Positions 18,571 through 64,000 of a DNA stretch of 64,000 nt are shown here, piece by piece. Numbering within the stretch: position 1 is the stretch's first letter; every line of letters starts with the position of its first letter. The translations under genes were made by a program, and so were the position numbers. Source of the DNA: Faecalibacterium sp. (lineage in GTDB: Bacteria > Bacillota > Clostridia > Oscillospirales > Ruminococcaceae); contig JALCRP010000010.1 in NCBI GenBank assembly GCA_022652735.1, positions 1 to 64,000 on the forward strand. Direction: 5' to 3'. A model generated the notes under the pieces. The model made no database searches. It was not told where the DNA came from and worked only from the letters and a program-made list of their open reading frames with translations.

Positions 18571-20883
18571 ATGTTCTGGAATCACACAAACGCGGCCACT
18601 GCCCCGCAGCCGGCCAATGCCCCGGCGGGCCTGACTGGCATCGCCGCCTATGCCGGCAAACCGCTGGCCGATTGCTCTGACCGTGAAGCGTACAACGCGC
18701 TTGTTGCCTACACGCAGGCCGCCGCCAAGGGCCGCGGCTACAACACGGGCAAAAAGAAGCTTTATTATATCTCTGCTGAGTTTTTGATCGGCAAGCTGAT
18801 GTCGAATAACCTCATCAACCTCGGCCTATATGAAAAGGTAAAAGCCGAGCTGGCCGCCGCCGGCAAAGATCTTGCCGCGCTGGAAGAGTATGAGGCCGAG
18901 CCTTCGCTGGGCAACGGCGGGCTTGGCCGCCTTGCCGCCTGCTTTATGGATAGCTGCGCAACGCTGGGCCTGCCCGCAGACGGCGTGGGCCTTGCTTACC
19001 ACAACGGCCTGTTTAAGCAGGTTTTTACTGACCATAAGCAGCGTGAGATGCCCAACCCCTGGCTTGGCTGGGGCACTGAAAGCTGGCTGCGCCGCACCGA
19101 TACCCACTACACCGTATCGTTCGGCGGCCTGACGCTTAAAAGTACTCTGTATGAGCTGGACGTGACGGGCTACAACGCCAAATCCGGCAAGCTGCGCCTG
19201 TTTGATGTTGACAGCGTCTGCGATGACCTTGTCAAGGACGGCATCGACTTTGATAAAGAAAAGATCGCGCAGAACCTCACGCTGTTTTTGTACCCGGACG
19301 ACAGCGACGACAAAGGCCGCCTGCTGCGCATCTATCAGCAGTATTTCATGGTTTCAAACGGTGCGCAGCTGCTTCTGGATGAGTGCGTAGCGCGCGGCTC
19401 GAACCTGCACGATCTGGCCGATTACGCCGCCGTGCAGATCAACGATACCCACCCGACGATGGTGATTCCTGAGCTGATCCGCTTGCTGGAAGCGCGCGGC
19501 ATCGGCGAGGAGGAGGCCGTCTCGATCGTGGAAAAGGTGTGTGCCTATACCAACCACACGATCCTTGCCGAGGCGCTGGAAACTTGGCCGCGCAGCTTTT
19601 TGGATACTGTCGTGCCGCAGCTTATGCCCATCATCGAGATGCTGGATCAGCGCGTAAAAGCCAAGACGACCGAGGAATTTGTGCAGATCATCGACAAAGA
19701 TAACCGCGTCCACATGGCAAACCTCGACATCCACTTTACGCATTCGACGAACGGCGTGGCCGCGCTGCACACCGAAATCCTCAAAAATACGGAGCTTGCG
19801 CCTTTTTACAAGCTGTATCCCGAAAAGTTCAACAATAAAACAAACGGCATCACGTTCCGCCGCTGGCTGATGGAGTGCGACCCGGCTTTGGCCGAATGCA
19901 TCACGGATACCATCGGCGCGGGCTGGAAGCAGGACGCCGATAAGCTCGAGGCCCTGATGAAGCATCAGGGCGATCAAAAGCTGCTGGCGCGGCTGGCCGC
20001 TATCAAGGCCGACAACAAAAAGGCGCTGGCCGCGTGGCTGGAAAGCACACAGGGCGTTACGGTAAACCCCGACGCCGTGTTTGATGTGCAGATCAAACGC
20101 CTGCACGAATACAAGCGCCAGCAGATGAACCTTTTGTGGTGCATCCACGAATATCTCGCCATTAAGGCGGGCGAAAAGCCCGAGGTGCCCGTTGTGGCCA
20201 TCTTCGGCGCAAAAGCCGCCCCGGCGTATACCATCGCGAAAGACATCATCCATGCGATTTTGTGCTTTGCCGAAATTTGCAACGCCGACGAGGAAGTTCG
20301 CCCCTATCTGCAGATCGTGATGGTGGAAAACTACAATGTCACCGCGGCCGAAAAGCTTATCCCGGCCGCCGACATCTCCGAGCAGATCAGCCTTGCCTCG
20401 AAAGAGGCGAGCGGCACCTCGAACATGAAGTTCATGCTGAACGGCGCCGTAACGCTTGGCACGATGGACGGCGCAAACGTTGAGATTGCCGAGCTTGTGG
20501 GCAAGGATAACATCTACACCTTCGGCCAGTCAAGCAACGAAGTAATCGCGCACTACAAGGCCGCCGATTATGTCGCGAAGGATTGGTACAAGAAAGATCC
20601 CGCGATCAAAGCGGCGCTGGATTTCCTTGTGGGCAAAGAGATGCTCGCCGTTGGCGACGAAGAAAACCTCACCCGCCTGTACAAAGAGATTTTGAACAAG
20701 GACTGGTTCATGTCTTTGCCCGATTTTGAAAGCTACTGCGCGGCGAAAAAGCATGCCTTGCACGACACCACGGCGAAAACCCAGTGGGCCGAAAAGATGC
20801 TTGTGAACATCGCCAAGGCCGGCTATTTCTCATCCGACCGCACGATCGAGCAATATAACAAAGACGTCTGGCATCTGCGCTAA
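18571..20883 (+). CDS. glgP: Glycogen/alpha-glucan phosphorylase
   Basis: 770 residues of a GT35 phosphorylase, which releases glucose-1-phosphate from alpha-1,4-glucan ends. The substrate block [21 protein letters not shown] (about 110-130) and the PLP block [20 protein letters not shown] (about 610-630) with its lysine are intact. HEYKRQQMN is another family signature. ATG at 18571 has GGAGG 8 nt upstream. Other glycogen genes are not in the window. Confidence 0.95.
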
Positions 20884-20983
20884 GCAGCCTCTTTGCGGCT
20901 GCCACGGCCCTTTGGTGGGCCGCCGTCTGACCTGTTCGGCCAGCGCGCCTTCTGCTTTGCCTCGCACTTTTTAAGCCATCTTC

Positions 20984-21030
20984 TTCTCCTTTCCCCTCGC
21001 GGCCTTCGGGCCGCGGGGGGATTTTTTATA
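20984..21030 (+). repeat. 47-bp direct repeat, left copy, containing terminator
   Basis: Identical over 47 bp to 23844-23890. It contains the stem CGCGGCC/GGCCGCG with C-rich and G-rich flanks and a T6 run, so it is also the glgP terminator. The two copies bracket a 2.8-kb block of five small genes. Confidence 0.9.
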
Positions 21031-21123
21031 CTTTTCGGCGCAGCAAACCATGATTTTTTTAGAGAAAACACAAGAGCGACCCCGCAAAAGTGGGGCCGCT
21101 CCATAAGGCTATCAAAAGACGAT

Positions 21124-21591
21124 TTAAGACAAGGTGCCGTTCGCCGAGCAGGTAAGAGCCAAATCTACCGGGCAAGTCAGTCCATTCTTTGAAAAGGAAG
21201 CATGAAGATAAACGGCTGCGCCGCTGGAGGAGGTCTTCTCTCCGCCGTAAGCCCAACCTGCGGCCGTGCTGTGCCCGCCTGAAACGTTTGTCGCCCATGC
21301 GGCCGAGCCGGTATAAGCAAAGGTACCATAAATGGTTACCGTTCCCACATATTCACCGCTGTGGTAATAGTTGTTCGTTTTATGGCCGGAGCGCGTAGAA
21401 GCCGCGGCACGGCTGTTTACTGCATCTTCGTAAGTAATCGTCGTAACTACTACCACATTATCCGGCAGCTTTTGTGTGTAGGTTATCTCCTGTTGTGGCG
21501 AGCATACCGTATCAGCAGATGCCGCAAAGCATGTAAGAGGACAAAACACCAACATACAGAATGTAACAAGACTCACAACAAATTTCTTCAT
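21124..21591 (-). CDS. Secreted beta-rich protein of unknown function
   Basis: 155 residues. A signal peptide (MKKF start, hydrophobic core to about residue 23, cleavage near CFAAS) is followed by a Thr/Ser/Gly-rich beta-pattern: YVGTVTIYGTFAYTGSAAW, a Ser-rich turn and a C-terminal CSANGTLS. It resembles small secreted beta-proteins common in Firmicutes that end in a cysteine-asparagine-glycine turn; no function is known to me. It lies in the block between the 47-bp repeats, downstream of a PadR regulator and a membrane protein on the same strand. Confidence 0.75.
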   Translation of the reverse strand: MKKFVVSLVTFCMLVFCPLTCFAASADTVCSPQQEITYTQKLPDNVVVVTTITYEDAVNSRAAASTRSGHKTNNYYHSGEYVGTVTIYGTFAYTGSAAWATNVSGGHSTAAGWAYGGEKTSSSGAAVYLHASFSKNGLTCPVDLALTCSANGTLS

Positions 21592-21611
21592 TTTATATTC
21601 TCCTTTCTTTT

Positions 21612-22013
21612 TTATGAAAAAAGCAAAGACGCTAGCAGGATTCCGACATTATCGTACACGATCGTGGTTTCTACAACAAAGATGCCTCGAACCACATAGT
21701 AATAAATCACCATTGCTGCCAAAAGCACAATTACAGCAGCAATCCCGGCTGCCCAGAGCCAGCGGTGATGCCGCCGTCTTTTCTCATACCGGAGCGGCTC
21801 TTCGGGTGCAAGTGTCTCCATGAATATTGCCGCGGCTTTTTCTGGCGTACCAAGCGCGGCTTCTAACTCCTGAAAAGAAGCCTCTGGCTGTTCGGTCAAA
21901 AAATCTTGTGCCGAAGCCAGAATATACTGTCGAAACGTTTCTCTCTGTGCTTTTTCACAGCGCAGGTAGGGTTCTGCTCGCCGCAAATAGTCCTTTAGTT
22001 CTCCTTCGTACAT
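21612..22013 (-). CDS. Small membrane protein of the PadR-partner type
   Basis: 133 residues. The cytoplasmic helical part (1-80: LKDYLRRAEPYLRCEKAQRE, then ASFQELEAALGTPEKAAAIF) is followed by one or two membrane segments. This is the DUF1700/DUF6120 pattern, proteins that usually sit directly behind a PadR regulator and are thought to be membrane sensors. Its ATG lies inside the end of the PadR gene with GGAGG 6 nt upstream, so the two are co-translated. Confidence 0.75.
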   Translation of the reverse strand: MYEGELKDYLRRAEPYLRCEKAQRETFRQYILASAQDFLTEQPEASFQELEAALGTPEKAAAIFMETLAPEEPLRYEKRRRHHRWLWAAGIAAVIVLLAAMVIYYYVVRGIFVVETTIVYDNVGILLASLLFS

Positions 22014-22402
22014 GCCGAGCCTCCGTATAATTTTCCGTCCTGTTGCAGCAGGCTGTCAATCGCCTGCGTAGTTTGGCGATACTCCTGCAAAAGTGCCTGT
22101 AAATAGGCTTGCCCGCTTTCTGTAATCGCAAAATAGACACGGGTGCGGTTTTCCATAATGCGTTTTTCGTCCTCTTGGATATAGCCTCGCTCTTTTAAGC
22201 GATAGATCGCAAGATAAAGCGTATTAAAGGTAAGCACGCCCTTGGTGATTCGGGCAGCCTCCTGAATCATCTCGTAGACATACATATTTTTTTGGCGCAG
22301 CAAAAACAGCACCAACATTTCTGTCGTTGCCTTTTTCATAGCGTCTTTCATTCCCGCCGGTGTACCGCTTTTTGCGTTAGCAGTGTTGTTTTCTTTTTCC
22401 AT
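21995..22402 (-). CDS. PadR family transcriptional regulator
   Basis: 135 residues. Winged helix-turn-helix with TEMLVLFLLRQKNMYVYEMIQ, FNTLYLAIYRLKERGYI and a wing, then a short dimerising helix. PadR proteins repress neighbouring genes and release them with small effectors. It overlaps the membrane protein gene by 19 nt and is divergent from the gene at 22560. AAGGAA precedes its ATG. Confidence 0.88.
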   Translation of the reverse strand: MEKENNTANAKSGTPAGMKDAMKKATTEMLVLFLLRQKNMYVYEMIQEAARITKGVLTFNTLYLAIYRLKERGYIQEDEKRIMENRTRVYFAITESGQAYLQALLQEYRQTTQAIDSLLQQDGKLYGGSACTKEN

Positions 22403-22462
22403 TTTTGTTCCTTACTTTATAAAACAGCTTATCATCAATCTTAAAAAAATCAATATTTGTTA

Positions 22463-22491
22463 TTGACAAGTATTGTATTAAGATTTATGAT
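22463..22491 (+). promoter_or_regulatory. Plus-strand promoter
   Basis: TTGACA (22463-22468) and TATGAT (22486-22491) with a 17-bp spacer, in the AT-rich region divergent from the PadR gene. It drives the gene at 22560 and is a likely PadR target. Confidence 0.7.
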
Positions 22492-22559
22492 TCAGTTAAC
22501 AAAAACTGGCGAAGGGTATGTAAACAGATTATATACCTACACAAAATAGAGGCAGAGCT

Positions 22560-23138
22560 ATGGCGCGGACATACCTCCAGAAGCCCGATAGGAAAGCTGC
22601 CCATTACAGCTTTGTGATCGGGTTGCTATTATTGGTTTTCTTGTTGAATGGTTTTATTCAAGGGCAAACGATATGGAAAAGCCTTGAGCCTCGCTATACA
22701 AGTTGCTATTCGCTCGTGCGAGGCGATTTCGTGGGCAAGGATATGGTTTTTGGCAGCGGAAGAACAGAGAATCTGTCTGTCTTAGCCTTGTATGATGGCT
22801 GGTATTTCCCCTACGACGATTCGTGGTCTTCTCTGCGGCAGATATATACCGAACTTTCTACAGCATATTCGCCCAAGGCCGCAACGGAAATTTACACAAG
22901 CTTTACACAAAGCGATACGCCCCTTTGGATAGAAAAAGCGGGAAAGCTCTATCAACGAGACGGCTTTTCGGGAACTAATGCCTTGCGTGGCAACCCAGCT
23001 TTTTTGCTGTACCAAACGCAAGATACCGCCGTGCTGTGCCTTCGGGTGGAATATGACGACGGGCAATGCGGGATGTGCTTCGTGCACCTGATAAAAACCG
23101 CTGCCGTATGGTATATTGATGAATTTATTGGGCTGTAA
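22560..23138 (+). CDS. Single-pass membrane protein, unknown
   Basis: 192 residues: one membrane segment (about 17-35), then an extracytoplasmic domain with alternating aromatic and polar residues. No motif recognised. AGAGG lies before the ATG. It belongs to the AT-richer block between the 47-bp repeats. Confidence 0.6.
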   Translation: MARTYLQKPDRKAAHYSFVIGLLLLVFLLNGFIQGQTIWKSLEPRYTSCYSLVRGDFVGKDMVFGSGRTENLSVLALYDGWYFPYDDSWSSLRQIYTELSTAYSPKAATEIYTSFTQSDTPLWIEKAGKLYQRDGFSGTNALRGNPAFLLYQTQDTAVLCLRVEYDDGQCGMCFVHLIKTAAVWYIDEFIGL

Positions 23139-28506: not shown

Positions 28507-28540
28507 AAAACGTGCACAAAATCGCCCGGCATCTGCCGGC

Positions 28541-28702
28541 AAACAGCTCTCCGCAGGATCTGCGACAGTGAGGCACATTTTTTGTGCCGCACCAGATCCC
28601 GCGCGCCGGCAGGCGGGCAGGTCTTCGGCGGAAGGGCCTTTCCCTGCAGCGGGCTGCCGCCCGGCTTTGCCGCAGGTACTCATCGCTTCCGCGCCTCTGT
28701 TC
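28541..28702 (-). ncRNA. Lysine riboswitch aptamer
   Basis: Minus-strand sequence shows the lysine aptamer core in order: AGAGGCGCGG, GATGAGTA, GGGAAAGG, CCGCCGAAGA, CACTGTCGC and GCGGAGAGCTGT. Closing stem AACAG/CTGTT is present. These match the Thermotoga and Bacillus lysine riboswitches block by block. It is followed by a terminator and the NhaC gene, which fits transcriptional shut-off by lysine. Confidence 0.93.
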
Positions 28703-28714
28703 CTTATGCGGGTA

Positions 28715-52528: not shown

Positions 52529-52605
52529 GCGTTGGTAGCTCAGCTGGATAGAGTGACTGACTACGAATCAGTAGGCCGGGGGTTCGAGTCCCTTCCATCG
52601 CACCA
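52529..52605 (+). tRNA. tRNA-Arg, anticodon ACG
   Basis: 77 nt including encoded CCA. D arm TAGCTCAGCTGGATAGAG, anticodon stem ACTGA/TCAGT with ACG at 52563-52565, T arm GGGGGTTCGAGTCCC and discriminator A. The acceptor stem GCGTTGG/CCATCGC has a T-T mismatch at the fourth pair; CCAACGC would pair perfectly. Since the 3' end is duplicated at 61301-61343, the 3' part may have been swapped by the inserted element. Confidence 0.95.
52564..52605 (+). repeat. Left attachment-site copy within tRNA-Arg
   Basis: The last 42 nt of the tRNA recur at 61301-61343 with one substitution/insertion in the variable-loop region. It marks the left junction of the island. Confidence 0.85.
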
Positions 52606-52977: not shown

Positions 52978-53778
52978 TTAATCATCCATTGCAGATGATA
53001 CGTTTGCTGCGCATTGAGCACTTGCGGAAGTATCGCGGCAACACAGTAAAGCAGCCAGCGAAAGGATAAACATGGCCGCAATAGCAGGGGTGAATATTTT
53101 GTCGAGCATAGCGAGGGCGGCCGTATTGTTCCAGTGCACATACTGTGTAAGGTTTGCAAAAACATCATATACAAAATGCAGGAATATCGGCAACACAATA
53201 TTGCGTGAGCACAAATAGATGGCAGAAAACGCAAAGCCGATGGCCCCAGTGCATAAAAAGGTCTGCAAATTCCATGCTCCCAAGACGTGAAGCCCACCGA
53301 ACAGCAAAAAGCCGATGGCAGCGTAGGCAAGACGTAGCATTTTTGTGCGATGCGGCTGAAAGAAATAGCCGTCCAAAAGCAACGTGCGATAGCAGAGTTC
53401 CTCGTAGAAGCCGGTCGTAATCTGCTGTAAAAACAGTTGGGATATTATCAGGTCGATCCGCAAGCCGGAAAAAGACTGCACACCAGCCGCAAAATCTATC
53501 GTGTAGTACAATAAATACAGTAAGAACCCTGTAGCAGCGATCCATGCCGCTTTTGCCTGATGAAACCGAAAAACATCTCCTGCGCTTCGGCCGTACAGCT
53601 TTCCGATAATCCACAGAATTATTACACCGAAGGTAAGGCGCAAAAGGCTGCTGTATACGTACCATGCCGTATCGGTAAACAGCTGCCGCCCAAGGACGGA
53701 AAGCGCAATAAAGAGTGCGCTAAAAAGCATCGACCAAGTAATACCCGCAAACTTCCGATTGACAAAAATCTGTTTCAT
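52978..53778 (-). CDS. CPBP family intramembrane protease
   Basis: 266 residues if the ATG at 53778 is used; ATG at 53802 or 53832 would add 8 or 18 residues. Eight membrane segments. The motifs are FYEELCYRTLLLDG, LLFGGLHVLGA and LHFVYDVFAN. Such proteases process prenylated or bacteriocin-type peptides or give self-immunity. Only gene of the island outside the PTS operon. Confidence 0.82.
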   Translation of the reverse strand: MKQIFVNRKFAGITWSMLFSALFIALSVLGRQLFTDTAWYVYSSLLRLTFGVIILWIIGKLYGRSAGDVFRFHQAKAAWIAATGFLLYLLYYTIDFAAGVQSFSGLRIDLIISQLFLQQITTGFYEELCYRTLLLDGYFFQPHRTKMLRLAYAAIGFLLFGGLHVLGAWNLQTFLCTGAIGFAFSAIYLCSRNIVLPIFLHFVYDVFANLTQYVHWNNTAALAMLDKIFTPAIAAMFILSLAALLCCRDTSASAQCAANVSSAMDD

Positions 53779-54184
53779 GGAAACTCTTTCCCCCACAATC
53801 ATTGTGCCACGGCCTTTCCGCGGCGGATTCATTCTTTCAATAAAGATACTACGAATGAAGGAGGCGCTTTACTGCAACCTGTTTTGCACCGTTCAAGCGC
53901 CATTTCACCCTTCTGATTAGACGATTCACTTATTGTGAATTTCTCAAGAATTCCACGGCAGGAGTCGGAGGGGTAGCCCCAGAGGACAAAACCATAAATA
54001 TCGGTTGCCTTTTGGCGGGTGTTTTGCAATCGCAGAGGAATGTTCGCAATACAGAAGATCATGTGCATCCTGATTGTGGGACAGGTACTGGTCAAATCGG
54101 TTTCGCCGTCTTGGCTTACAGCGGCATGTAAAGCTCGTCGGCACTCATTTCGTTCTTCGTCTCGGGCTTACGAAGGGACTATAT
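53779..54184. other. Intergenic region, no gene recognised
   Basis: About 400 bases with scattered short frames on both strands and no clear ribosome sites. No domain could be identified; some of it may be decayed coding sequence. Confidence 0.4.
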
Positions 54185-54226
54185 AAACAAGAGGCTGTTG
54201 CAGACATCTGCAACAGCCTCTTGTTT
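54185..54226. terminator. Terminator of the PTS operon
   Basis: 20-bp perfect inverted repeat (54185-54204 and 54207-54226) with A/T-rich outer ends. It lies 86 nt past the hydrolase stop. Confidence 0.9.
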
Positions 54227-54311: not shown

Positions 54312-55709
54312 TTAGCGGCGGAAAACGACATCAAACGTAGAGAAGGTCGTATACAGCGCTTTTACCTCATAGTGCAACGTCAGATAGCCGCGGTCAATAT
54401 AGAACACGAAGTTGAATTTGCTGGCACAATCCAATGCGCGAAGTTGAATCTGCAGGGTTGTTTTCGTGAGCCATGCATAATTTCCGAACAAGATCGGTGC
54501 GTACTTTTCAGGTCGCATCGTTCGGATAGAATCAGCAGCAATAAACTTTGAAAAGTTTTCAAACGCATTTGTTTGCCGAGTCCACTCGTTGTACCCCGCA
54601 GTGAACGAAAAGCGTTCCCGGCCACGTAGCAAGGTAACTTTGATATGTTCGCCATCCGGTTGTTCCCACTCAAGTTCCGTAATGCGCGCCGGATTTTCAA
54701 GCGCGGCGTAGCGGTAGCTTTTCGTATCATCCAAGAACCCGGCAGCGATACCTTTTATAGGAGGAATCGAGAAATCCGTGAACTGAGGCACCGCTTCGGG
54801 ATAATCTATGGCACGAAACAGGCAGTTTAAGATGGCCTGGCTTCCCGAAGTCGCACTGGACATGGCAATAACGAGACGGTTTTCCGGTTGGATAAAACAC
54901 ATCTGCCCGTGCAGGCCCGAACAGCGATAGGCGCCGTGGGTGCACATCCAGAACTGATAACCATAGCCCTGTCGGTTCTCGGTGCGATCAATGGGATACT
55001 CCGACGCATTTTCCATTTGCTTGCGTGTAGCTTCGGCCAGCCACTCTGCCGGAATGATCTGCTTACCTTGATATACGCCGTGATTTAGGCAGCACAATCC
55101 GAATTTAGCCAGATCAGGTGTGCTCAGATGCAACCCGAAACCGCCCGTAGTATGCCCCAGACGATCCTCTTCCCAGTAATAGTCATGGATACCCAGCTGT
55201 GCAAACAGGCGCTCGGCCAATAGGTCGGATACCTTTTGCCCCGCAACCGTCTGCACCAACACGGAAAGCATATGAGAGCACATGCTGTTATAGAAAAATT
55301 TCGTACCGGGCTCGTAGCAAAGCGGCTTCCCTGCGACGGCTGCGGCCCAATCATCATCACCATGCGCAGCGGCTTCGGCATCCTGCCCGAGCGACATTGT
55401 AAGCAGATGCCGAACCGTCACATTGCGAAACGCAGGGTCGGCCACAATATCGGCATAGGCCGGGCAGTATGTAAGCCAAGGCGCATTGATGTCGATTTTC
55501 CGATCGCTAACTAAATATCCCACGGCGATAGACAGGAACGATTTTGACACAGAGTACAACGGATGCAGCGCATCAATTTCAAACGGTGCATAAGCTCTAT
55601 TTAGCAAAAGTCGGCCTTCCTGATAAATGGTGATCGCGTGGACTTCGACCTGCGTTTGTTTGAGCAGCGTTAAAAACTGATTTATACGCTCCTGTGTAAA
55701 AAGTTCCAT
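54312..55709 (-). CDS. Beta-lactamase-fold serine hydrolase
   Basis: 465 residues without a signal peptide, so probably cytosolic. SVSK has Ser53 and Lys56 (SxxK), FYNSMCSHML gives the Tyr-x-Asn element and SGLHGQMCF the third motif (HGQ for KTG). This fits the class C / AmpC-like esterase and peptidase family. After residue 330 an extra domain of about 130 residues follows (beta-rich). As last gene of the PTS operon it may cut a modification from the imported sugar, which is inference. Confidence 0.83.
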   Translation of the reverse strand: MELFTQERINQFLTLLKQTQVEVHAITIYQEGRLLLNRAYAPFEIDALHPLYSVSKSFLSIAVGYLVSDRKIDINAPWLTYCPAYADIVADPAFRNVTVRHLLTMSLGQDAEAAAHGDDDWAAAVAGKPLCYEPGTKFFYNSMCSHMLSVLVQTVAGQKVSDLLAERLFAQLGIHDYYWEEDRLGHTTGGFGLHLSTPDLAKFGLCCLNHGVYQGKQIIPAEWLAEATRKQMENASEYPIDRTENRQGYGYQFWMCTHGAYRCSGLHGQMCFIQPENRLVIAMSSATSGSQAILNCLFRAIDYPEAVPQFTDFSIPPIKGIAAGFLDDTKSYRYAALENPARITELEWEQPDGEHIKVTLLRGRERFSFTAGYNEWTRQTNAFENFSKFIAADSIRTMRPEKYAPILFGNYAWLTKTTLQIQLRALDCASKFNFVFYIDRGYLTLHYEVKALYTTFSTFDVVFRR

Positions 55710-55721
55710 TTTATTTTCCCC

Positions 55722-57143
55722 TTACAGCAAATCGTTCATTGCATCCTTGACCGCCTGCACGTCTTTGCCGATGACGATCTGAATGTTGGTATCCGTGAGT
55801 TTTACGAGGCCCTTGACGCCGGTCTGACGAATCTTTTCCTCGTTGATGGCCGTGCCGTCTTTCACCTCAATGCGCAAACGAGTAATGCAGTTTTCAACGG
55901 AAACGACATTGCCCTTTCCGCCCAAATTCTCGATCAGCTTTTTGGCCAGATACGGGATGTTGGTGGCGTTCATAGCAAAGTTTTTCTCGTCCTCGGTGAT
56001 TTCGGCAGTAGTGGTATCATCATCCGTGCGGCCCGGCGTCTTAATATTATCGTGTTCGATGACCCACTTAAAGCTAAAGTAATACAGGAAGAAGAACAGA
56101 ATACCAACCGGCAGAATCCAAATGGCGTTACTGCCGAGGTTAAAGTTCAGCACATAGTCAATGATATCGACGTTGTAGGAGATGCCGAGGCGGACATTCA
56201 TGAAGTAGAAGATTGCTCCGCCAAGGCCGCTGTACAGGCAGTGCAGCAAATACAGCTTCGGAGAGACAAATTCAAACATGAATTCAACCGGTTCCGTAAT
56301 ACCAGCAACAAAGGTTGTAGCAGCACCGGAGATCATCAAGGATTTCGTTTCTGCTTTTTTCTCTTTCTTAGCGGCCTTATACATTGCAAAGCAGGCACCG
56401 GGCAGGCCAAACAGGAACACCGGATACAAACCGGTCATGAACACACCCGCAGTGGGGTCACCGGCCAGAAAACGAGGAATATCGCCGGTAACCACTTCAC
56501 CAGCGGCTGTAGTAAAGCTGCCCATCTGGAACCAAAGATACGAGTTGATAACATGATGCAACCCAACAGGAATCAGCGCGCGGTTCAAGAAACCGAACAG
56601 GAAAATGCCGACCACACCGGAGCTGGCCAGCCACATGGCCAAAGAATCGAGGCCGTTCTGAATCGGCGGCCAAACCAGATTGAAGAGCAGTGCCAACGGA
56701 ATCGCACAAATCGGGGCGAGCACGATGATAAAGCGATCGCCGGTGAAAAAGCTGAACATTTCAGGAGTCTTCCATTCGCGGCTGTAATTATATAGAATCG
56801 CCGCCAGAGTGCCAACAACGATGCCTGCAAACACCCCCATGCCAATATCGGGGTTCAGCGAAGTAAGGCAGGCCTTAAACGCAAAGAGCCCCGCTGCAGC
56901 ACCGATCATAGGATATGTCTTATCCTTGCTCTTGGCGAAGGCAAGGCATGCACCAAAGGCAAACAACATATCAAGATTACCAGTGATTGCGTTGGATGCC
57001 GTTTCCATCAACGGAATATTGAGCATATCCGCCGCACCGAGGCGGCCCAGAATACCGACGGCCGGCATGGCCACAATCGGTATCAGCATGGCTCTGCCCA
57101 GTTTGGACAGATTCGTGATAAATGCTTTCCAGAATTTTTTCAT
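55722..57143 (-). CDS. PTS EIICB component, glucose/GlcNAc superfamily
   Basis: 473 residues. EIIC (1-360) with IPVGLHHVINSYLWFQMG and GITEPVEFMFEFVSP, the family signatures; linker; then EIIB (390-473) with phospho-Cys419 in ENCITRLRIEV. It imports and phosphorylates a sugar. The EIIA is a separate protein here. The substrate is undetermined; GlcNAc, glucose and glucosamine or maltose transporters share this pattern. GGAGG precedes the ATG. It lies 12 nt upstream of the hydrolase gene. Confidence 0.93.
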   Translation of the reverse strand: MKKFWKAFITNLSKLGRAMLIPIVAMPAVGILGRLGAADMLNIPLMETASNAITGNLDMLFAFGACLAFAKSKDKTYPMIGAAAGLFAFKACLTSLNPDIGMGVFAGIVVGTLAAILYNYSREWKTPEMFSFFTGDRFIIVLAPICAIPLALLFNLVWPPIQNGLDSLAMWLASSGVVGIFLFGFLNRALIPVGLHHVINSYLWFQMGSFTTAAGEVVTGDIPRFLAGDPTAGVFMTGLYPVFLFGLPGACFAMYKAAKKEKKAETKSLMISGAATTFVAGITEPVEFMFEFVSPKLYLLHCLYSGLGGAIFYFMNVRLGISYNVDIIDYVLNFNLGSNAIWILPVGILFFFLYYFSFKWVIEHDNIKTPGRTDDDTTTAEITEDEKNFAMNATNIPYLAKKLIENLGGKGNVVSVENCITRLRIEVKDGTAINEEKIRQTGVKGLVKLTDTNIQIVIGKDVQAVKDAMNDLL

Positions 57144-57330
57144 GTTTCCTCCAGCCAGTGCTGCATTCTGGCGCTGTTGTTACGGGCGGGTGCAGCCGGA
57201 TTTCCCGCCGTCCTTTCTTGTTTTTTGTGCAATTCCTCTCTCAGTTTTCTATGCGTTCCCTTCTTTCTCTCATATTCATCTATCAATCATGAAAATCTTT
57301 CTGGGCAATGCTGGCTGTAAAGGGATCCAT

Positions 57331-58938
57331 TCATAATGCCTGACGCACCGCTTTTCTGATTTTCAAAACGGACAAAGGAGCAACCGAAAGCTCATCCACT
57401 CCCATATCGAGGAATGCTTCAGTCAGCGAAATATCCGCGCCGAGTTCTCCGCAGATTCCCACCGGTTTTCCGGCCTTGTGCGCATTTTCCACTGTCATCC
57501 GAATCAATCGCAAAATGGCTTCGTGGTGTGGCTGATAGAACGAACCGAGGTTTGGGTTCTGGCGGTCAACCGCAAGGGTGTACTGCGTCAGATCGTTTGT
57601 TCCGATGCTAAAGAAATCCGCTTTTTTGGCAAGTAAGTCGCTGATTACAGCGGCAGCAGGGGTTTCGATCATAATCCCTTCGGGCACGGTTTCATCAAAG
57701 GCCGTTCCGGCGCGGCGCAGTTCCTCGCGCACCGAAGCAGACACTGCGTAAATCTCATCCAGTTCTTCCGCCGAAGTAATCATCGGGTACATAATGCTAA
57801 GTTTCCCATAAGCGCTGGCACGGTACAGTGCCCGCAGTTGTGTACGAAACACCTCCTGATGCGAAAGGCAATAACGGACAGCTCGGCAACCGAGGGCGGG
57901 GTTTGCCTCCTGCCCAAGGTCGAGATACGAGACCTGCTTGTCGGCGCCAATATCCATAGTTCGGAAGACGATACGCTTACCCGGCATGGCCAGTAGCGCA
58001 CGCTTATAAACAGCAAACTGCTGCTGCTCATCGGGTAGGGCGGGCGCATCCAGATATAAAAACTCCGTTCGGAATAGCCCGATACCACCCGCATCGTTTT
58101 GTTGGGCAAGTGCTATATCTGCAAGGCTACCGGCATTGGCAAAGATTTTGATTATTCTGCCGCTACGGCTGACATTTTCCTGCCCTATGAGGGCCTTCAG
58201 CTGTGCCTTTTCGGCTTTCTGCACTGCCGCACGGCTTTGATACATTGTCAGTGTTTGCTCATCTGGGTTAAGCAGCAGCAGCCCTTCGTTCCCATCCAGA
58301 ATGGCTGTTTTTCCTTCCCATTCCGGGTTCACGGCAACACCCGCTATGGCGGGAATCGCCATACTACGTGCAAGAATTGCTGTATGCGAACTGGGCGAGC
58401 CTTGGCGGGTAACAAAGCCAAGCAACTGCGTTGCATCCATTTGGATTGTTTGAGAAGGCGTTAGCTCTTCGGCAGCAACAATGCCGGGCACCGATTGCTG
58501 TTCTGGGCGCTTTCCCTGCAAAACACCCGCTACACGAGCAGCCACATCGCGAATATCAGCACTTCGTGCACGAAAGTATTCGTTGTCCATTGCTAAAAAA
58601 TCGGCGGCAATACTTTCGCCGGCCTGCTGTGCAGCATATGCGGCATCCCAATGCTTTTGTGTAATGTTCTGTCGAACGGCATCGCAAAAGTCATCGTCCT
58701 CAAGTAGCATGGCGTGAATCTCAAATATTTCGGCGGCTTCTTCGCCTGCCTCGTGTTGCGCTTTGATCTGTAGCTTATTGAGCTGCGCTTTGGCTTCGGT
58801 GCATGCCGATTCAAAGCGGGAGAGTTCTCTATCGGGGTCGAGCACTTCACTGCAGGTGCATGCTTTTTCGCCGTCCAAAAAATGTATGGGTCCGATTGCA
58901 ATGCCGCCGCACAGTTTTTTACCGAGAATGCGTTCCAT
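57331..58938 (-). CDS. ptsI: PTS enzyme I (phosphoenolpyruvate-protein phosphotransferase)
   Basis: 535 residues, slightly short. His185 in GSPSSHTAILAR is the phosphorylated residue; the usual GGRTSH differs here. Arg in FRTEFLYLD, FRTMDIGADK and Cys in VGICGELGAD complete the PEP site. It starts the phosphorelay from PEP to HPr. A general EI is usually elsewhere on the chromosome, so a copy on an island is notable. AGAGG precedes the ATG. Confidence 0.92.
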   Translation of the reverse strand: MERILGKKLCGGIAIGPIHFLDGEKACTCSEVLDPDRELSRFESACTEAKAQLNKLQIKAQHEAGEEAAEIFEIHAMLLEDDDFCDAVRQNITQKHWDAAYAAQQAGESIAADFLAMDNEYFRARSADIRDVAARVAGVLQGKRPEQQSVPGIVAAEELTPSQTIQMDATQLLGFVTRQGSPSSHTAILARSMAIPAIAGVAVNPEWEGKTAILDGNEGLLLLNPDEQTLTMYQSRAAVQKAEKAQLKALIGQENVSRSGRIIKIFANAGSLADIALAQQNDAGGIGLFRTEFLYLDAPALPDEQQQFAVYKRALLAMPGKRIVFRTMDIGADKQVSYLDLGQEANPALGCRAVRYCLSHQEVFRTQLRALYRASAYGKLSIMYPMITSAEELDEIYAVSASVREELRRAGTAFDETVPEGIMIETPAAAVISDLLAKKADFFSIGTNDLTQYTLAVDRQNPNLGSFYQPHHEAILRLIRMTVENAHKAGKPVGICGELGADISLTEAFLDMGVDELSVAPLSVLKIRKAVRQAL

Positions 58939-58954
58939 ACGGTGCGCCTCTTTC

Positions 58955-59212
58955 TTACAAGTTTTCTTCCATCAGCTTTTGCAGAGCGGCTACAGCCAGC
59001 TCTTCATCAGGGCCTTCAGCTTTTACCGTGACAGACATGCCATGCTCGACCCCGAGCTTCAGCAGCGCTATCATCTTTTTTATATCGGCGCTCTGACCGT
59101 TTACCTCCAGTGTGCAGGCGGCATCAAACTGTTTTGCCTGCTTCACCAATAGCCCCGCCGGCCGAGCGTGGATTCCAGCTTCGTTTTGAATCACATACTG
59201 AAAACTTTTCAT
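58955..59212 (-). CDS. ptsH: HPr phosphocarrier lacking regulatory serine
   Basis: 85 residues. His15 in AGIHARPAG is present. At the regulatory site ordinary HPr has Ser46 (KSIM); here the stretch is DIKKMIALLKLGV with Lys46, so HPr kinase cannot act on it. It carries phosphate from EI to EIIA. Its ATG overlaps the EIIB stop by one base (TAATG). Confidence 0.92.
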   Translation of the reverse strand: MKSFQYVIQNEAGIHARPAGLLVKQAKQFDAACTLEVNGQSADIKKMIALLKLGVEHGMSVTVKAEGPDEELAVAALQKLMEENL

Positions 59213-59487
59213 TACAATGTCCTCTTCTGTCTTTCTTTTTGAATTACTGCGCGCAAGATGGTATCGACCTGCGCGGCGCTGACCCCGTACACCAGTTGGA
59301 TCTCAGTACCGCGTACAACGGCACCGCAGCATCCCGTATCTCGTTCTATATCCTGGAGATGCAGTAGCGATACCTGATCAACTTCAACGCGCAAACGGGT
59401 GAAGCAGGTTTCTATGGTGAGAATGTTATCCACGCCGCCCAGTGCTTCCAGCAAAGCCTGCGCCTGCGACCGTGTGATTGCTTCCAT
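59212..59487 (-). CDS. Stand-alone PTS EIIB domain protein
   Basis: 91 residues. Phospho-Cys28 in IETCFTRLRVEV, then a GAVVRGTEIQLVYG strand as in the glucose-type EIIB. This is a second EIIB beside the one fused to EIIC. It may serve as an alternative donor or as a regulator for the antiterminator. GTTAGGAG precedes the ATG. Confidence 0.88.
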   Translation of the reverse strand: MEAITRSQAQALLEALGGVDNILTIETCFTRLRVEVDQVSLLHLQDIERDTGCCGAVVRGTEIQLVYGVSAAQVDTILRAVIQKERQKRTL

Positions 59488-59590
59488 ATTTTTTGCACTC
59501 CTAACAAAAAAGACCCATAGCGGCGTACGCCTCCTTATGGAAGCGACGCAGCCACGGATCTTGCCTGCATTACCAGTAACACTCCATTGC

Positions 59591-60433
59591 CTAAATCATT
59601 CTATTGATATAGATCAAAAGATATACCGTTTCGGAATTCTGTAAAGAGTAATCGTATTCCTTCCGAATATATTCTGTAATATGGCGGATACACTGTGGGC
59701 TTGCAGGATGTTTCTTCAAAAGGAACGCAAGCTCTTCGGCGGCATCTGCCTCCTCTTTGATCTCGGGTTGCCGAGACGTACCTCGACATATATCACTGCC
59801 CAGACATTTCAAATGGGTACTAAGCCGAAGCAGGGCGCTGCTACCTGTGGCAGGGTGAATATCGTAGTCAGCGCAGATGATTGCCAACACATCTTTTACA
59901 AATTGCAGTGTGCGTGTAATGATAGCTTTACTGTCCTGTGCGCCGGAATCCACCAGATGCATTGCAATGTAACTAGCCTCGTCAGTACTCAGTTGCACAC
60001 CTGTCTTTTGCTCAAACTGTTTTAGGCCCCAAAGTCCTAGCTGATATTGCTCGGGATATAAAAGCTTTACTTCGTCGGCCAGAAGGTTCGGCAGTTCAAT
60101 GCCTTTTCGGTGGCGTTCCAATGCAAAAGTCAAATGATCGCTGAGCGTAATGAACGCCAACGGTCCGGGGTCGACGCCGAGTTGCTGCGCCGCCCGTTGA
60201 ACAATCTCCTCGGCCGCTTCTCGCGCTCGAGGATCGGATTGTTCGAGCAGCCGAAGATATTTTTGCTGCAAAGCACTCTGGATATAGAATGTTTTTTCAA
60301 TCTTGTCCAGTGCAATCGGATCGCCCGGCTTTTTGGAAAAGCCGATACCGGAGCCCGTTAGGACACATTCTTTCCCGTCATCGGTCTTTGCGGCAACTGT
60401 GTTGTTGTTATAGACTTTGACGATTGTGTTCAT
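59591..60433 (-). CDS. BglG/LicT family transcriptional antiterminator
   Basis: 280 residues. RNA-binding CAT domain (1-55: VKVYNNNTVAAKTDDGKE, GSGIGFSKKPGD), then PRD1 (about 65-170, with LSDHLTFALERH) and PRD2 (about 175-280). The PRDs sense PTS phosphorylation by their histidines. The RAT site and terminator in the operon leader match its expected target. GAGGA precedes the ATG. Confidence 0.92.
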   Translation of the reverse strand: MNTIVKVYNNNTVAAKTDDGKECVLTGSGIGFSKKPGDPIALDKIEKTFYIQSALQQKYLRLLEQSDPRAREAAEEIVQRAAQQLGVDPGPLAFITLSDHLTFALERHRKGIELPNLLADEVKLLYPEQYQLGLWGLKQFEQKTGVQLSTDEASYIAMHLVDSGAQDSKAIITRTLQFVKDVLAIICADYDIHPATGSSALLRLSTHLKCLGSDICRGTSRQPEIKEEADAAEELAFLLKKHPASPQCIRHITEYIRKEYDYSLQNSETVYLLIYINRMI

Positions 60434-60443
60434 GATTGTTTCC

Positions 60444-60902
60444 TCATTTCAGTCGATAACGAAATACGTGATTCCCCTGATTCAGAAACGTGGTATCCAA
60501 CTTATAATCCTCAAAGTTAGAAAAAGCTACGATAACGCTGGTATCATACCCTTGCTGAGCGAGCGATTCCCGGTCAAACTTCACAATGGGCTGTCCGGCC
60601 TCAACATGCTGATCCGCTTCGACCAAAAAGCTAAACCCCTCACCCTTTAGATTGACAGTGTCAATGCCGATATGTACAAGAATCTCCTCATCGGCATCGC
60701 CCGTAAGCATAAAGGCATGTGCCATCTTGGTGCGTACCAGTGTTCCCGCAATCGGAGCCCGCACAATATCTTCTTCTGGGGCAACTCCGAACCCTTCGCC
60801 CATCATTTTTTGAGCGAAGCCAGGATCGCTCACCTGATCGAGCGGGATAAGCTGCCCCGCAAGTGGTCGATCAATATATTTGTATTTTTGGCCAAACAGC
60901 AT
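60444..60902 (-). CDS. PTS EIIA component, glucose type
   Basis: 152 residues. The phospho-acceptor is His77 in LVHIGIDTV with His62 in KMAHAFMLTG nearby, as in EIIA-Glc. First gene of the operon. The start at 60902 has GGGAGG before it; upstream in-frame codons overlap the terminator. Confidence 0.92.
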   Translation of the reverse strand: MLFGQKYKYIDRPLAGQLIPLDQVSDPGFAQKMMGEGFGVAPEEDIVRAPIAGTLVRTKMAHAFMLTGDADEEILVHIGIDTVNLKGEGFSFLVEADQHVEAGQPIVKFDRESLAQQGYDTSVIVAFSNFEDYKLDTTFLNQGNHVFRYRLK

Positions 60903-60922: not shown

Positions 60923-60955
60923 AAAAAAAGCATGAGTTCCTTTTAGAACTCATGC
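60923..60955 (-). terminator. Leader terminator of the PTS operon
   Basis: Stem GCATGAGTTC/GAACTCATGC with a 6-nt loop and T7 on the minus strand, between the promoter and EIIA. Antitermination at the RAT would prevent it. Confidence 0.92.
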
Positions 60956-60976
60956 CTGATTAAACAGTAACACGCC
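60946..60976 (-). promoter_or_regulatory. RAT (ribonucleic antiterminator) site
   Basis: Minus-strand GGCGTGTTACTG followed by TCAGGCATGAGTTC matches the LicT/SacT RAT consensus and overlaps the 5' arm of the terminator at 60946-60955, so the two structures exclude each other. Confidence 0.87.
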
Positions 60977-60995
60977 GCGCTTTTGCGCTATAGTC

Positions 60996-61024: not shown

Positions 61025-61300
61025 GTATTTTTTTGCAGAGAAGCAGTTTTTTTGTACACTATATCTTATGAAAGCGCAATGAAACCTTTGATACTCTTCT
61101 TGGATATAGAGCGATCTCGCATTATATTAGCACAATGTACGCCCTGATATGTTCCCGGTATTCTGTCCGCCACACGATAAAAAGCAGTAAAGAATGCGGG
61201 CAGAAGACAATAAGCCAGAAGCAATAAAGCAGCGATCATCAGGCGGTTTTCAAAGCAAAGTAAGGATAATTCAGATGCCTTTTCCTATCTTCGTTTTCTT

Positions 61301-61343
61301 CGAATCAGTAGGCCGAGGGGTTCGAGTCCCTTCCATCGCACCA
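61301..61343 (+). repeat. Right attachment-site copy (tRNA-Arg 3' fragment)
   Basis: 43 nt repeating the tRNA from the anticodon loop to CCA, with an extra A in the GGCCGAGGGG stretch. No 5' half of a tRNA precedes it, so it is a junction, not a gene. Confidence 0.87.
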
Positions 61344-61400
61344 AAAACAAAAGGTAATATAGATTTATTGCTTACAAAGCCAGTAAATCCAAGCCTTTCG

Positions 61401-61436
61401 AGAGCTTCCACGATGAAAAGTGGAAGCTCTTTTTTC
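61401..61436. terminator. Terminator behind right att copy
   Basis: 11-bp perfect arms AGAGCTTCCAC/GTGGAAGCTCT with an 8-nt loop, then T6. Confidence 0.88.
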
Positions 61437-61502
61437 GTAGATTTATTGGGGTAAAAGCTTCACTCAGGCAGGATTCAAACCTACAAGTAAAAACGAATAA
61501 GA

Positions 61503-61637
61503 ATGGCGCCCTTTTCAGAACAGAGTGAAATGAAAAAGGGCGCCACTCGAAATGCAATCAAAGAAACAAGCTCAAAATAAAAAGGGCGCTGATTTTTAAG
61601 GCTGAATGAAAGCCGATAAGGTTAGCGCCCTTTTTTA
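61503..61637. terminator. Two hairpins sharing GGGCGC stems
   Basis: First: TGGCGCCC and GGGCGCCA arms at about 61504-61545. Second: AAAAAGGGCGCT paired with AGCGCCCTTTTTT ending at about 61637. With the neighbours they make four stacked hairpins in about 320 bases with no gene. Confidence 0.7.
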
Positions 61638-61674
61638 ATATACACCAAAATCACATTAAAATTGAAAGCATCAG

Positions 61675-61726
61675 AAGGCCGGAGAATCGGAGTGCAGGAA
61701 TGTACTCTATTCTCCGGCCTTTTTTG
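61675..61726. terminator. Terminator at start of second element
   Basis: AAGGCCGGAGAAT/ATTCTCCGGCCTT with an inner GAGT/ACTC stem and a T-rich tail. Confidence 0.88.
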
Positions 61727-61746
61727 TTTTCTGGAAAGGAATAACC

Positions 61747-61992
61747 ATGTTGGTACGCTATAAGAGAAATAAACAAACTGCCTGTTACGACTCGGACAAT
61801 CTCGCTACTCTCGGCAGGACATCACCGGACGAACGTCCTTACGGTCCCTTCCCCAGCTGCGGCAACTGCCCTTACCCGTCCCACGGCTTCACTTGCTATA
61901 GCTCTGAGGGAGATTGCCTCAAAACCGATATGCAAAAAATTGCGAAACGCAGAAAGGATGATGCAGGAAGTGAGGTGAGCAATGGAAACTGA
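61747..61992 (+). CDS. Small cysteine-rich protein of mobile element
   Basis: 81 residues with CGNCPYPSHGFTCYSSEGDC (three Cys plus a His, possible zinc binding). AAAGGA precedes the ATG, and it overlaps the next gene by 11 nt. Not recognised further. Confidence 0.6.
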   Translation: MLVRYKRNKQTACYDSDNLATLGRTSPDERPYGPFPSCGNCPYPSHGFTCYSSEGDCLKTDMQKIAKRRKDDAGSEVSNGN

Positions 61993-62566
61993 ATTAACAA
62001 AACGCATTAAGGCGCTTACCCACCACTACCGCCCAAGGCTGCATACCGAAAAGCGCACCGTCCGGTGGGCGGATGAGGTATGGACGTCGTCAGGGATTGT
62101 AGACAGCATCCGGTTTGAGGACTATTACGAGGATGAGGAATATCTCTGCAGGCTTCTGGATGCGGAGCGTTTTTCCGAAAAGGAACCGTGCTTGACAGCG
62201 TATCGGCACGAACTCGGAAGGTGCTTTCGGGACGGCAGTACAGATAAGAATGCAAAGAAATGCCATGGCTGCGTCCTGCGGTGCCATAACTGGCGGATTG
62301 GGATGATGGTCACCTGTTTTGAAGTCAAAATCACCTATCAGGATTTCAAAAGCAGAAACGGCCATAACTTTCATGGGAATGAAAATTACTATTGCGTGCC
62401 GAAAGCCCTTGCCGCCAGAATCGCCGGGGAGATCCCCGACCACATCGGCATCCTTGCATATTTTGAGGGAGATCGCCAATACGGGCTCCGGCAGTTTAAA
62501 CCGGCCATGTGGCAGGAGGTATCGGATCAAACCAAGGTACAGCTGCTGTACAACGCCATGAAATAG
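61982..62566 (+). CDS. Mobile-element protein of unknown function
   Basis: 194 residues, soluble, with KKCHGCVLRCHNWR (three Cys and two His, possible zinc site) near 95-110. GAGG precedes the ATG. The same gene order is typical of conjugative elements in gut Firmicutes as far as I recall. No function can be given. Confidence 0.6.
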   Translation: METELTKRIKALTHHYRPRLHTEKRTVRWADEVWTSSGIVDSIRFEDYYEDEEYLCRLLDAERFSEKEPCLTAYRHELGRCFRDGSTDKNAKKCHGCVLRCHNWRIGMMVTCFEVKITYQDFKSRNGHNFHGNENYYCVPKALAARIAGEIPDHIGILAYFEGDRQYGLRQFKPAMWQEVSDQTKVQLLYNAMK

Positions 62567-62634
62567 TGGTGCGACGGAGCAGTTTTTGTGTCACTGCCTG
62601 ATGTGCATTGCAGTAATCAATCGGAGGTATCAAA

Positions 62635-63873
62635 ATGAACGTTAACGCCAGAAAAGAAAAAATTTTTACAGTGGAACTCAGCCGCTGGAATCCTTCGGGC
62701 GCAAACCCCTCGGCGGAAATCGCACTCCCCGCCACACCCTATGAGCTGGCGGATGCGTTGGAAAAAGCGAAAATTACCGGGGACACCGTCTATTCCGCGG
62801 AGATTTTAAGCTGCAAGCTGGACTATCTGCCGCAGTTTATCGCCCCCGATGCCAATCTGCATGAGCTGAATCACCTCGCCCAGCGGCTGTCTTCCCTGAG
62901 TGCATGGGAGCTGGACTGCTTCGAGGGCATGGTGATGATGGATGCCGTCCAGACCCAATACGCCCCCATCCCGGTGGAGCGGCTCATCAACATGACCTAC
63001 AGCACGGCGCATTGCCAGATTGCCTATGAAGCCCATGACGACCAATCTCTCGGCAAATTTTATGCGGATAATGATTTTGTACCGGCACTGGAAAAGGTAT
63101 CGGATGAAGTCTACGAATATCTGGACTTCGCCAAAATCGGCAGAGAGATGCGCGAGGGTGAGGGCGGCGTGTTCACACCCCATGGCTATGTGGTGCAGAA
63201 TGGCGAGATTGCCGCCGAATACCACAGCGGGGATGCCAGCACCCTTGAAAAGACGGATTACGCCGTGCTTCTCCGCATCACCAAGGGGCATTTTAACGAT
63301 CCCGCCTATGACAATGACACGGCTGTCTTCCTCAAGCTCCCTGCCGGGGATGCGGCGCTTTTGCAGGCGGTCGATGCTGTTGGAGCGGCTTCCCCGGAGG
63401 AATGTCCATTCTCGTCGGAGGACTGCATGGCGCCCATTTTAACTGAAAAAATCAGCGACGCTTTGTATGCGTCAGAGGGTGACTGCTATGGGCTGGTCAA
63501 TGAGCTGGCAGAACAGCTACGGCGCATCCATGATAAGCACAACATCTTATCCTACAAGGCAATGCTGGGAGAAGCTCCCGGTGATATTTCTTTGGAAGAA
63601 GCCCTCGACCTTTCCCTTGTGTCAGAGGACTTCTCTGTTATCCGGGAGGCTGCTAACCCTGCGGACTACGCACGCTTTGTGCTTTCCAAATACTGCATTG
63701 AGCAGGAAAGCGAGCTGTTTGCCAGTGCAGACCTTGACGGATATGGCAGCAAATTGATTCAGGAAAAAGGGATTTCCCTCACGGAATACGGTGTTTTATG
63801 GTCGCTTACCGGGCGAACTGTGGAGCAATATCTCGACCAGCCCAGCCAAAGCCTTGGCATGGAAATGAAATAG
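62635..63873 (+). CDS. ArdA-like antirestriction domain protein
   Basis: 412 acidic residues. NLHELNHLAQRLSSLSAWEL (about 80-100) and DQSLGKFYADND resemble ArdA proteins, which mimic DNA and block type I restriction enzymes. The strongly acidic composition fits such mimicry. The length is more than double that of a single ArdA, so it may carry two repeated regions or other domains. GGAGG precedes the ATG. Confidence 0.6.
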   Translation: MNVNARKEKIFTVELSRWNPSGANPSAEIALPATPYELADALEKAKITGDTVYSAEILSCKLDYLPQFIAPDANLHELNHLAQRLSSLSAWELDCFEGMVMMDAVQTQYAPIPVERLINMTYSTAHCQIAYEAHDDQSLGKFYADNDFVPALEKVSDEVYEYLDFAKIGREMREGEGGVFTPHGYVVQNGEIAAEYHSGDASTLEKTDYAVLLRITKGHFNDPAYDNDTAVFLKLPAGDAALLQAVDAVGAASPEECPFSSEDCMAPILTEKISDALYASEGDCYGLVNELAEQLRRIHDKHNILSYKAMLGEAPGDISLEEALDLSLVSEDFSVIREAANPADYARFVLSKYCIEQESELFASADLDGYGSKLIQEKGISLTEYGVLWSLTGRTVEQYLDQPSQSLGMEMK

Positions 63874-63950
63874 CAAATCTTTGTTGGGTTTTGGTATAGC
63901 TATTCTCATGAAGCTGTGGCATTGTGTTGTGCTAAAGGGAGGCGAAGAAG

Positions 63951-64000
63951 ATGGACGAGAAGCTCATGGACTTGCTGGATATGGCTCTGGCGGAGCGGTT
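63951..64000 (+). CDS. Partial gene at right edge
   Basis: ATG with AGGGAGG upstream opens a frame (MDEKLMDLLDMALAER...) that continues beyond the window. Nothing more can be said. Confidence 0.5.
   Translation, partial: MDEKLMDLLDMALAER

Follow-up and report, generated by a model that had tools for sequence, protein, structure and literature searches.

In the Bacillus-type glcT-ptsG-ptsH-ptsI operon of the phosphoenolpyruvate (PEP)-dependent phosphotransferase system (PTS), enzyme II (EII) is a single protein, EIICBA. The antiterminator, EII, HPr and Enzyme I (EI) genes lie adjacent, as in the annotation of B. velezensis pDMB05-1 and Priestia megaterium pPmC-129-7, and the Priestia record carries a ribonucleic antiterminator (RAT) pattern between glcT and ptsG. 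Such operons encode the general EI and HPr. In Firmicutes, proteins of this general kind are reported to be inherited mainly vertically, with the EII complexes moving (accessible part of PMC2405797), and many sugar-uptake operons rely on those of their host. Here we describe a PTS operon with its own EI and HPr in a 64,000-nucleotide stretch of Faecalibacterium sp. DNA (contig JALCRP010000010.1, positions 1 to 64,000; hereafter the window). It resembles the Bacillus-type operons in the adjacency of its genes and in its RATs, but has separate EIIA, EIIB and EIICB proteins, EIIB twice and an added hydrolase, while core-type EI and HPr are encoded elsewhere in its genome.

We consider it quite likely that this is a horizontally acquired, substrate-induced operon of the glucose/N-acetylglucosamine PTS family, carried with its own general proteins on a tRNA-Arg hot-spot island that is flanked by attachment-site (att)-like repeats, resembles a cis-mobilizable element (CIME) and lies beside DNA like that of an integrative and conjugative element (ICE). 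Seen in the sequence are all parts of the relay, two leaders in which a RAT and a terminator overlap, the att-like repeats, a lower GC content and other EI and HPr genes in the genome. The features of the locus are as follows.

52529..52605, plus strand: tRNA-Arg(ACG), the integration target, its 3' half being the first att-like copy (ARAGORN; Rfam tRNA)
52978..53832, minus strand: CPBP/Rce1-like intramembrane protease, island cargo (PF02517, 9e-12)
54312..55709, minus strand: beta-lactamase-fold serine hydrolase, final gene of the operon (PF00144, 3.4e-36)
55722..57143, minus strand: EIICB, Glc family, glucose/N-acetylglucosamine branch (PF02378 and PF00367)
57331..58938, minus strand: EI (PF05524, PF00391 and PF02896, the last at 2.7e-103; TIGR01417, 532.8 bits against a cut-off of 341.7)
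58955..59212, minus strand: HPr with His15 and a Lys at the Ser46 position (PF00381, 9.4e-27; TIGR01003, above cut-off)
59212..59487, minus strand: stand-alone Glc-family EIIB with the phosphorylatable Cys (PF00367, 6.6e-10; alignment with solved glucose EIIB)
59505..59590, minus strand: second RAT element (59562-59581) and overlapping strong terminator, upstream of EIIB-HPr-EI (RAT pattern; fold z -5.74)
59591..60433, minus strand: LicT/BglG-family antiterminator (CAT_RBD and two PRD stretches)
60444..60902, minus strand: EIIA, Glc family (PF00358, 5.2e-40; TIGR00830, above cut-off)
60925..60995, minus strand: first RAT element (60953-60972) and overlapping strong terminator, leader of EIIA and the antiterminator gene (RAT pattern; fold z -4.57)
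61298..61347, plus strand: partial copy of the tRNA-Arg 3' half, the second att-like copy and right island end (direct repeats; genus DNA search)
61982..63873, plus strand: start of the ICE-like DNA, an open reading frame (ORF) without family match and an ArdA-like antirestriction protein (PF07275)

A predicted complete phosphorelay in one operon

The seven genes run on the minus strand in the order EIIA, LicT-like antiterminator, EIIB, HPr, EI, EIICB and PF00144 hydrolase (54312-60902). These ORFs and their Pfam and NCBIfam matches bear out the operon proposed in a preliminary description of the window, and alignments to solved relatives agree with its statement that the motifs are intact: the phospho-acceptors are present in EI (His), HPr (His15), EIIA (His) and EIIB (Cys), with HPr His15 called by script and the others judged by eye. 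The EIIB and HPr genes overlap by one base, and 16 bases separate HPr from EI. For EIIA, a start at 60902 is likelier than the ORF start at 60953 because 60957-60928 forms a terminator stem. Together, the genes are predicted to encode a complete relay of EI, HPr, EIIA, EIIB and EIIC, in which phosphate would pass from PEP to EI, HPr, EIIA and EIIB and then to the sugar at EIIC. The stand-alone EIIB may act as a spare phosphodonor or as a controller of the antiterminator.

The best NCBIfam model for the EIICB, TIGR01998 (NagE type), scores 428.8 bits, below its cut-off of 553.2. Among loci of related EIICB proteins, one YdjC-EIICB-GH4 locus scanned with Pfam encodes a GH4 glycosidase together with a YdjC protein that scores above cut-off for the chitin disaccharide deacetylase model, and YdjC- and GH4-like genes were recognised by eye in the loci of other relatives. 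This points to a substrate of amino-sugar or alpha-glycoside type for these EIICB relatives, as predicted from their gene neighbourhoods. PDB relatives of the hydrolase include 6-aminohexanoate-dimer hydrolases and esterases; its probable target is the phosphorylated substrate after import, which may be an amino sugar or a modified glucoside. Directly 3' of the hydrolase gene is a perfect inverted repeat of 20 nt around a 2-nt gap (54185-54226), perhaps a bidirectional terminator.

Predicted antitermination control

The two RAT elements are the only matches in the window to the pattern TGTTACTG-N5..7-CAGGCA, which gave none in 100 shuffles. A RAT overlapping a terminator is the arrangement reported for BglG/SacY-family antiterminators (PMC9981650), and the GlcT antitermination mechanism is described likewise (PMC12445079), in the accessible parts of both papers. 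The locus has the features of this family, namely a CAT RNA-binding domain, two PTS regulation domains (PRDs) and, twice, the RAT-terminator overlap in a leader. Across 207 fetched loci the pattern was found in 22, several of which overlap one another or are the window's own; a terminator-like stretch follows the RAT, judged by eye, in most of 11 other loci inspected, the L177 piece showing none.

We call the antiterminator only LicT-like because its score against the LicT equivalog model NF046042, 214.1 bits, is below the cut-off of 300. Compared with B. subtilis LicT, it keeps both PRD1 histidines and the first PRD2 histidine, with a tyrosine in place of the last. When the substrate is absent, phosphorylated EIIB would hold the antiterminator inactive and transcription would end at both leaders; when it is present, the antiterminator would bind the RATs and the operon would be transcribed.

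A tRNA-Arg island beside ICE-like DNA

The 3' half of tRNA-Arg occurs as direct repeats 8.7 kb apart (31 nt at 97% and 22 nt at 91%). Between them the GC content is 0.496, compared with 0.581 for positions 1-52528 of the window, where the lowest of 88 sliding blocks of equal size reaches 0.534; third-position GC is 0.52 in the island EI and 0.75 in the EI gene at C11 elsewhere in the assembly. The second copy of the tRNA 3' end and the differing composition are marks of a tRNA genomic island, and the repeats support the placement of the operon on one better than the preliminary description could. Besides the genes of the operon, island ORFs of at least 150 aa encode the CPBP protease or are overlapping or antisense frames. 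To the right of the second tRNA copy, the ICE-like DNA (ArdA, DUF3849, DUF6133) continues to the contig end at 69000. A megablast search of 61300-64000 against plasmids gave no match, nor did PADLOC on four neighbouring proteins.

An arrangement in which the operon belongs to the cargo of this ICE-like element instead of forming an island by itself, with the internal tRNA copy as a relic or a secondary att site, would suit both the start of the ICE-like genes just right of that copy and the lack of a recognised integrase among the proteins scanned in the 8.7 kb. We think it rather unlikely, however, as the tRNA copy lies between the operon and the ICE-like DNA, and other genomes of the genus show several att-like copies behind tRNA-Arg with integrases adjoining.

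Besides the full gene, partial copies of the tRNA-Arg end occur in at least 18 of the 30 other genus genomes, with up to three behind one tRNA, and all four integrase candidates scanned beside such copies match the phage integrase family (tyrosine integrases). tRNA-Arg(ACG) is thus a predicted integration hot spot throughout the genus. Its islands in G015 (L125:7849-14113) and G029 (L122/L123) carry an operon for mannose-type EIIA, EIIB, EIIC and EIID, along with an SIS-domain protein that comes closest to fructoselysine-6-P deglycase (below cut-off) and HAD-family and YitT-family proteins, families having been scanned in the G015 copy; G018 (L126) holds the end of the same segment. The window EI and HPr have no match in eight hot-spot stretches from five genomes. 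PTS cargo therefore recurs at tRNA-Arg, and EI and HPr in such cargo are seen only in the window. In G007, a Glc-family EIIB-like stretch (L127:4362-4712, minus strand) is about 2.6 kb away from a further partial copy of tRNA-Arg.

Elsewhere in the window, a low-GC patch spans about 20500-23000 within DNA otherwise at 0.58 GC, and a lysine riboswitch occurs at 28536-28707 (minus strand, 94.1 bits).

Other EI and HPr genes and the question of insulation

In the assembly, which comprises 2.2 Mb in 35 contigs and is 93.7% complete, the EI C-domain family is matched four times and there are four HPr genes, island copies included. With three further EI-like and three further HPr genes, the island is not the sole source of EI and HPr, and the preliminary description's treatment of it as an additional set holds. 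HPr and EI of genus-core type lie together at C11. A second PTS cluster, at C3 (L009, C3:184000-196603; local GC 0.51), likewise has general proteins of its own: besides EI and HPr it encodes a Man/GalNAc-family EIIABCD, an amidohydrolase that looks NagA-like by eye, sigma-54 and a PRD-containing sigma-54 activator. An EI-like gene at C20 adjoins a patatin-like gene, and a lone HPr at C1 (L012:5833-6102), which keeps His15 and Ser46, adjoins a uvrC-like gene, both neighbours being recognised by eye. HPr kinase has one match. The only matches to PF00358, PF02378 and PF00367 in the assembly are the island EIIA, EIICB and EIIB, so no other Glc-family EII was found from which the island could be insulated. 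These three families likewise gave no client for the C11 EI and HPr, other EII families not having been searched and the C3 set having been seen by chance.

In an insulated relay, the island EI and HPr would serve only the island EIIA and EIIB, and uptake would run without the core EI and HPr and escape HPr(Ser) catabolite control. The complete set in one operon, an identity of merely 51.3% between the island and C11 EIs, the Lys at position 46 of the island HPr and the Tyr replacing the last PRD2 histidine of the antiterminator would all fit such a scheme, which we nevertheless regard as unlikely. Lys or Arg occupies the Ser46 position in 73 of 78 HPr rows and 59 of 63 distinct sequences (the window's own three rows included), among them the C3 HPr and the genome's own C11 HPr (Arg46); the lone C1 HPr and one row from the genus retain Ser46. 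Since the core HPr shares its absence, we dropped the missing Ser46 as an argument for insulation. The last PRD2 histidine is absent, too, from two of nine other antiterminators compared. Moreover, EI and HPr can serve a foreign EII: a Dorea EII functions with E. coli EI and HPr, taking phosphate from E. coli HPr (accessible part of PMC6952197), so relays can cross-talk. In this family, most HPr proteins encoded next to EI have Lys or Arg at the Ser46 position. Judging from these sequences, the lineage may have handed HPr-kinase control to another, separate HPr, and transport and kinase signalling may be divided between two such proteins.

A portable orthogonal PTS is a distinctly unlikely extension of this idea: the island would move via tRNA att sites with ICE machinery and give any recipient, even a PTS-less one or one with a different PTS, self-standing and self-regulated uptake, its EI and HPr exchanging no phosphate with the host. 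Operation in hosts without a PTS is possible. With two relays in one cell, cross-talk between EI and HPr proteins becomes directly testable.

Origin of the island EI

Its own gene aside, the window EI is matched over its full length at no more than 51% in 31 genus genomes, and by fragments at up to 57%; some of the 30 other genomes are 77-90% complete. Nine genus EIs tested are 55-63.5% identical to the C11 EI and 48-51% to the window EI. A 65-row tree unites the C11 EI with 27 of the 28 genus EI rows (100/100), a group that does not include the window EI; a constraint joining the window and C11 EIs is rejected (approximately unbiased test, p-AU 0.016). A reduced tree places the window EI among EIs of the family and order. 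The phylogeny and the genome comparison, both suggested in the preliminary description, thus separate the island EI from the genus-core EI, and, with no close copy in the 30 other genomes, conserved synteny as a core PTS is not seen.

Elsewhere, the best EI identity is 53% in 396 family genomes, 52% in 345 order genomes (the samples overlap) and 53.6% in MT835487.1, an unannotated scaffold; for EIICB it is 53-54%. No donor was found among the family, order and phage-collection matches, which these values bound, and viral contigs gave no EIICB relative. The phage-collection EI matches (MT835487.1 at 53.6%, MT836618.1 at 50.2%) were considered as mobile copies and set aside, as they lie among ordinary chromosomal genes by eye and were treated as bacterial DNA. 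Both records (L204 and L206, respectively), labelled Bacteriophage sp., contain genes that resemble those of ordinary bacterial chromosomes, including PTS clusters next to LicT-like genes. EI is also matched in 185 records of the plasmid collection (E up to 1e-60), always below 60% identity, a number that is no count of mobile PTS because several listed records are chromosome-sized.

Complete relays are ordinary in the family. We drew 40 EI loci from 123 family genomes with strong EI matches, selecting them ourselves in favour of high rank and long contigs, with none from the genus. HPr, EIIA and EIICB lie on the EI strand within 7.5 kb in 11 of the 40 (tblastn, Glc-family parts), and three more have all of them, some on the opposite strand; within the genus, G020 holds another complete cluster. 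The premise of the preliminary description, that EI and HPr usually belong to the core chromosome and serve many sugars, goes too far for this family; the ptsGHI operon, too, is a complete cluster. Although the frequency of such clusters and the position of the EI in the reduced tree would suit an ordinary paralogue of the lineage, an old chromosomal PTS that lies near a tRNA by chance, this is very improbable given the lower GC, the att-like repeats and the lack of a full-length EI match above 51% in the other genus genomes, incomplete as some are.

Points that weigh against a horizontally acquired island

Several observations count against our preferred reading of a horizontally acquired, substrate-induced operon on a CIME-like island. 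Phosphotransfer along the chain is predicted, and the substrate of the island is a guess from a sub-threshold model and the neighbours of relatives. Composition alone proves little, because 2-kb blocks near 21.5 kb of the window reach a GC of 0.446. No integrase or recombinase was recognised among the scanned island proteins, ORFs below 150 aa and overlapping antisense frames not having been scanned; the island is only putatively mobile at present, and the distal end of the ICE-like DNA lies beyond the contig. In the trees, the window EI is a long branch of uncertain placement, and a constraint joining it to the whole genus-core clade is not rejected (p-AU 0.137).

Comparison with known systems

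Among mobile elements, the closest known arrangement is a CIME beside an ICE (review PMC5704250). As far as the accessible part of that review describes them, CIMEs share with the island att-like ends and a tandem position with an ICE-like element at a tRNA gene, and integrase and transfer genes were likewise unrecognised among the scanned island proteins (small and overlapping ORFs not scanned). ICE descent and mobilisation in cis belong to CIMEs, however, and the island is only CIME-like.

Among operons, the nearest relatives of the EIICB are found in YdjC-EIICB-GH4 operons of Butyricicoccus (53%), Enterococcus, Listeria and others. A LicT-like gene is nearby in 13 of 22 such loci and an EIIA gene in 11 of 22, but the island EI, HPr and hydrolase were matched in none of the 22 fetched flanks. 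The LicT-EIIA-EI-HPr-EIICB-type cluster of MT836618.1, with a similar one in G020 (L130), has the same relay parts and the RAT pattern. It differs in its type of EIICB (about 30% identity over EIIC; three broken frames in MT836618.1), a stand-alone EIIB was not found in it, and nagB and nagA follow in MT836618.1; ARAGORN reported no tRNA gene in either locus. A complete PTS including EI and HPr is also present on the Haloarcula marismortui plasmid pNG700 (Comas et al. 2008, accessible part of PMC2405797), in that case archaeal and of the fructose class.

In a literature search combining general PTS proteins with islands, ICEs or transfer, no title or abstract opening described a Firmicutes tRNA island with EI and HPr, and the main text of PMC6907783, on gut mobile elements, contains neither 'phosphotransferase' nor 'PTS'. 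If our reading is true, an EI-HPr pair travelling with its EII on a tRNA island, beside a core-type pair, is a counter-example to vertical inheritance of the general proteins. The parts of the island operon are familiar and their mobile packaging is less usual, making this most likely horizontally acquired operon a new packaging of a known operon type.

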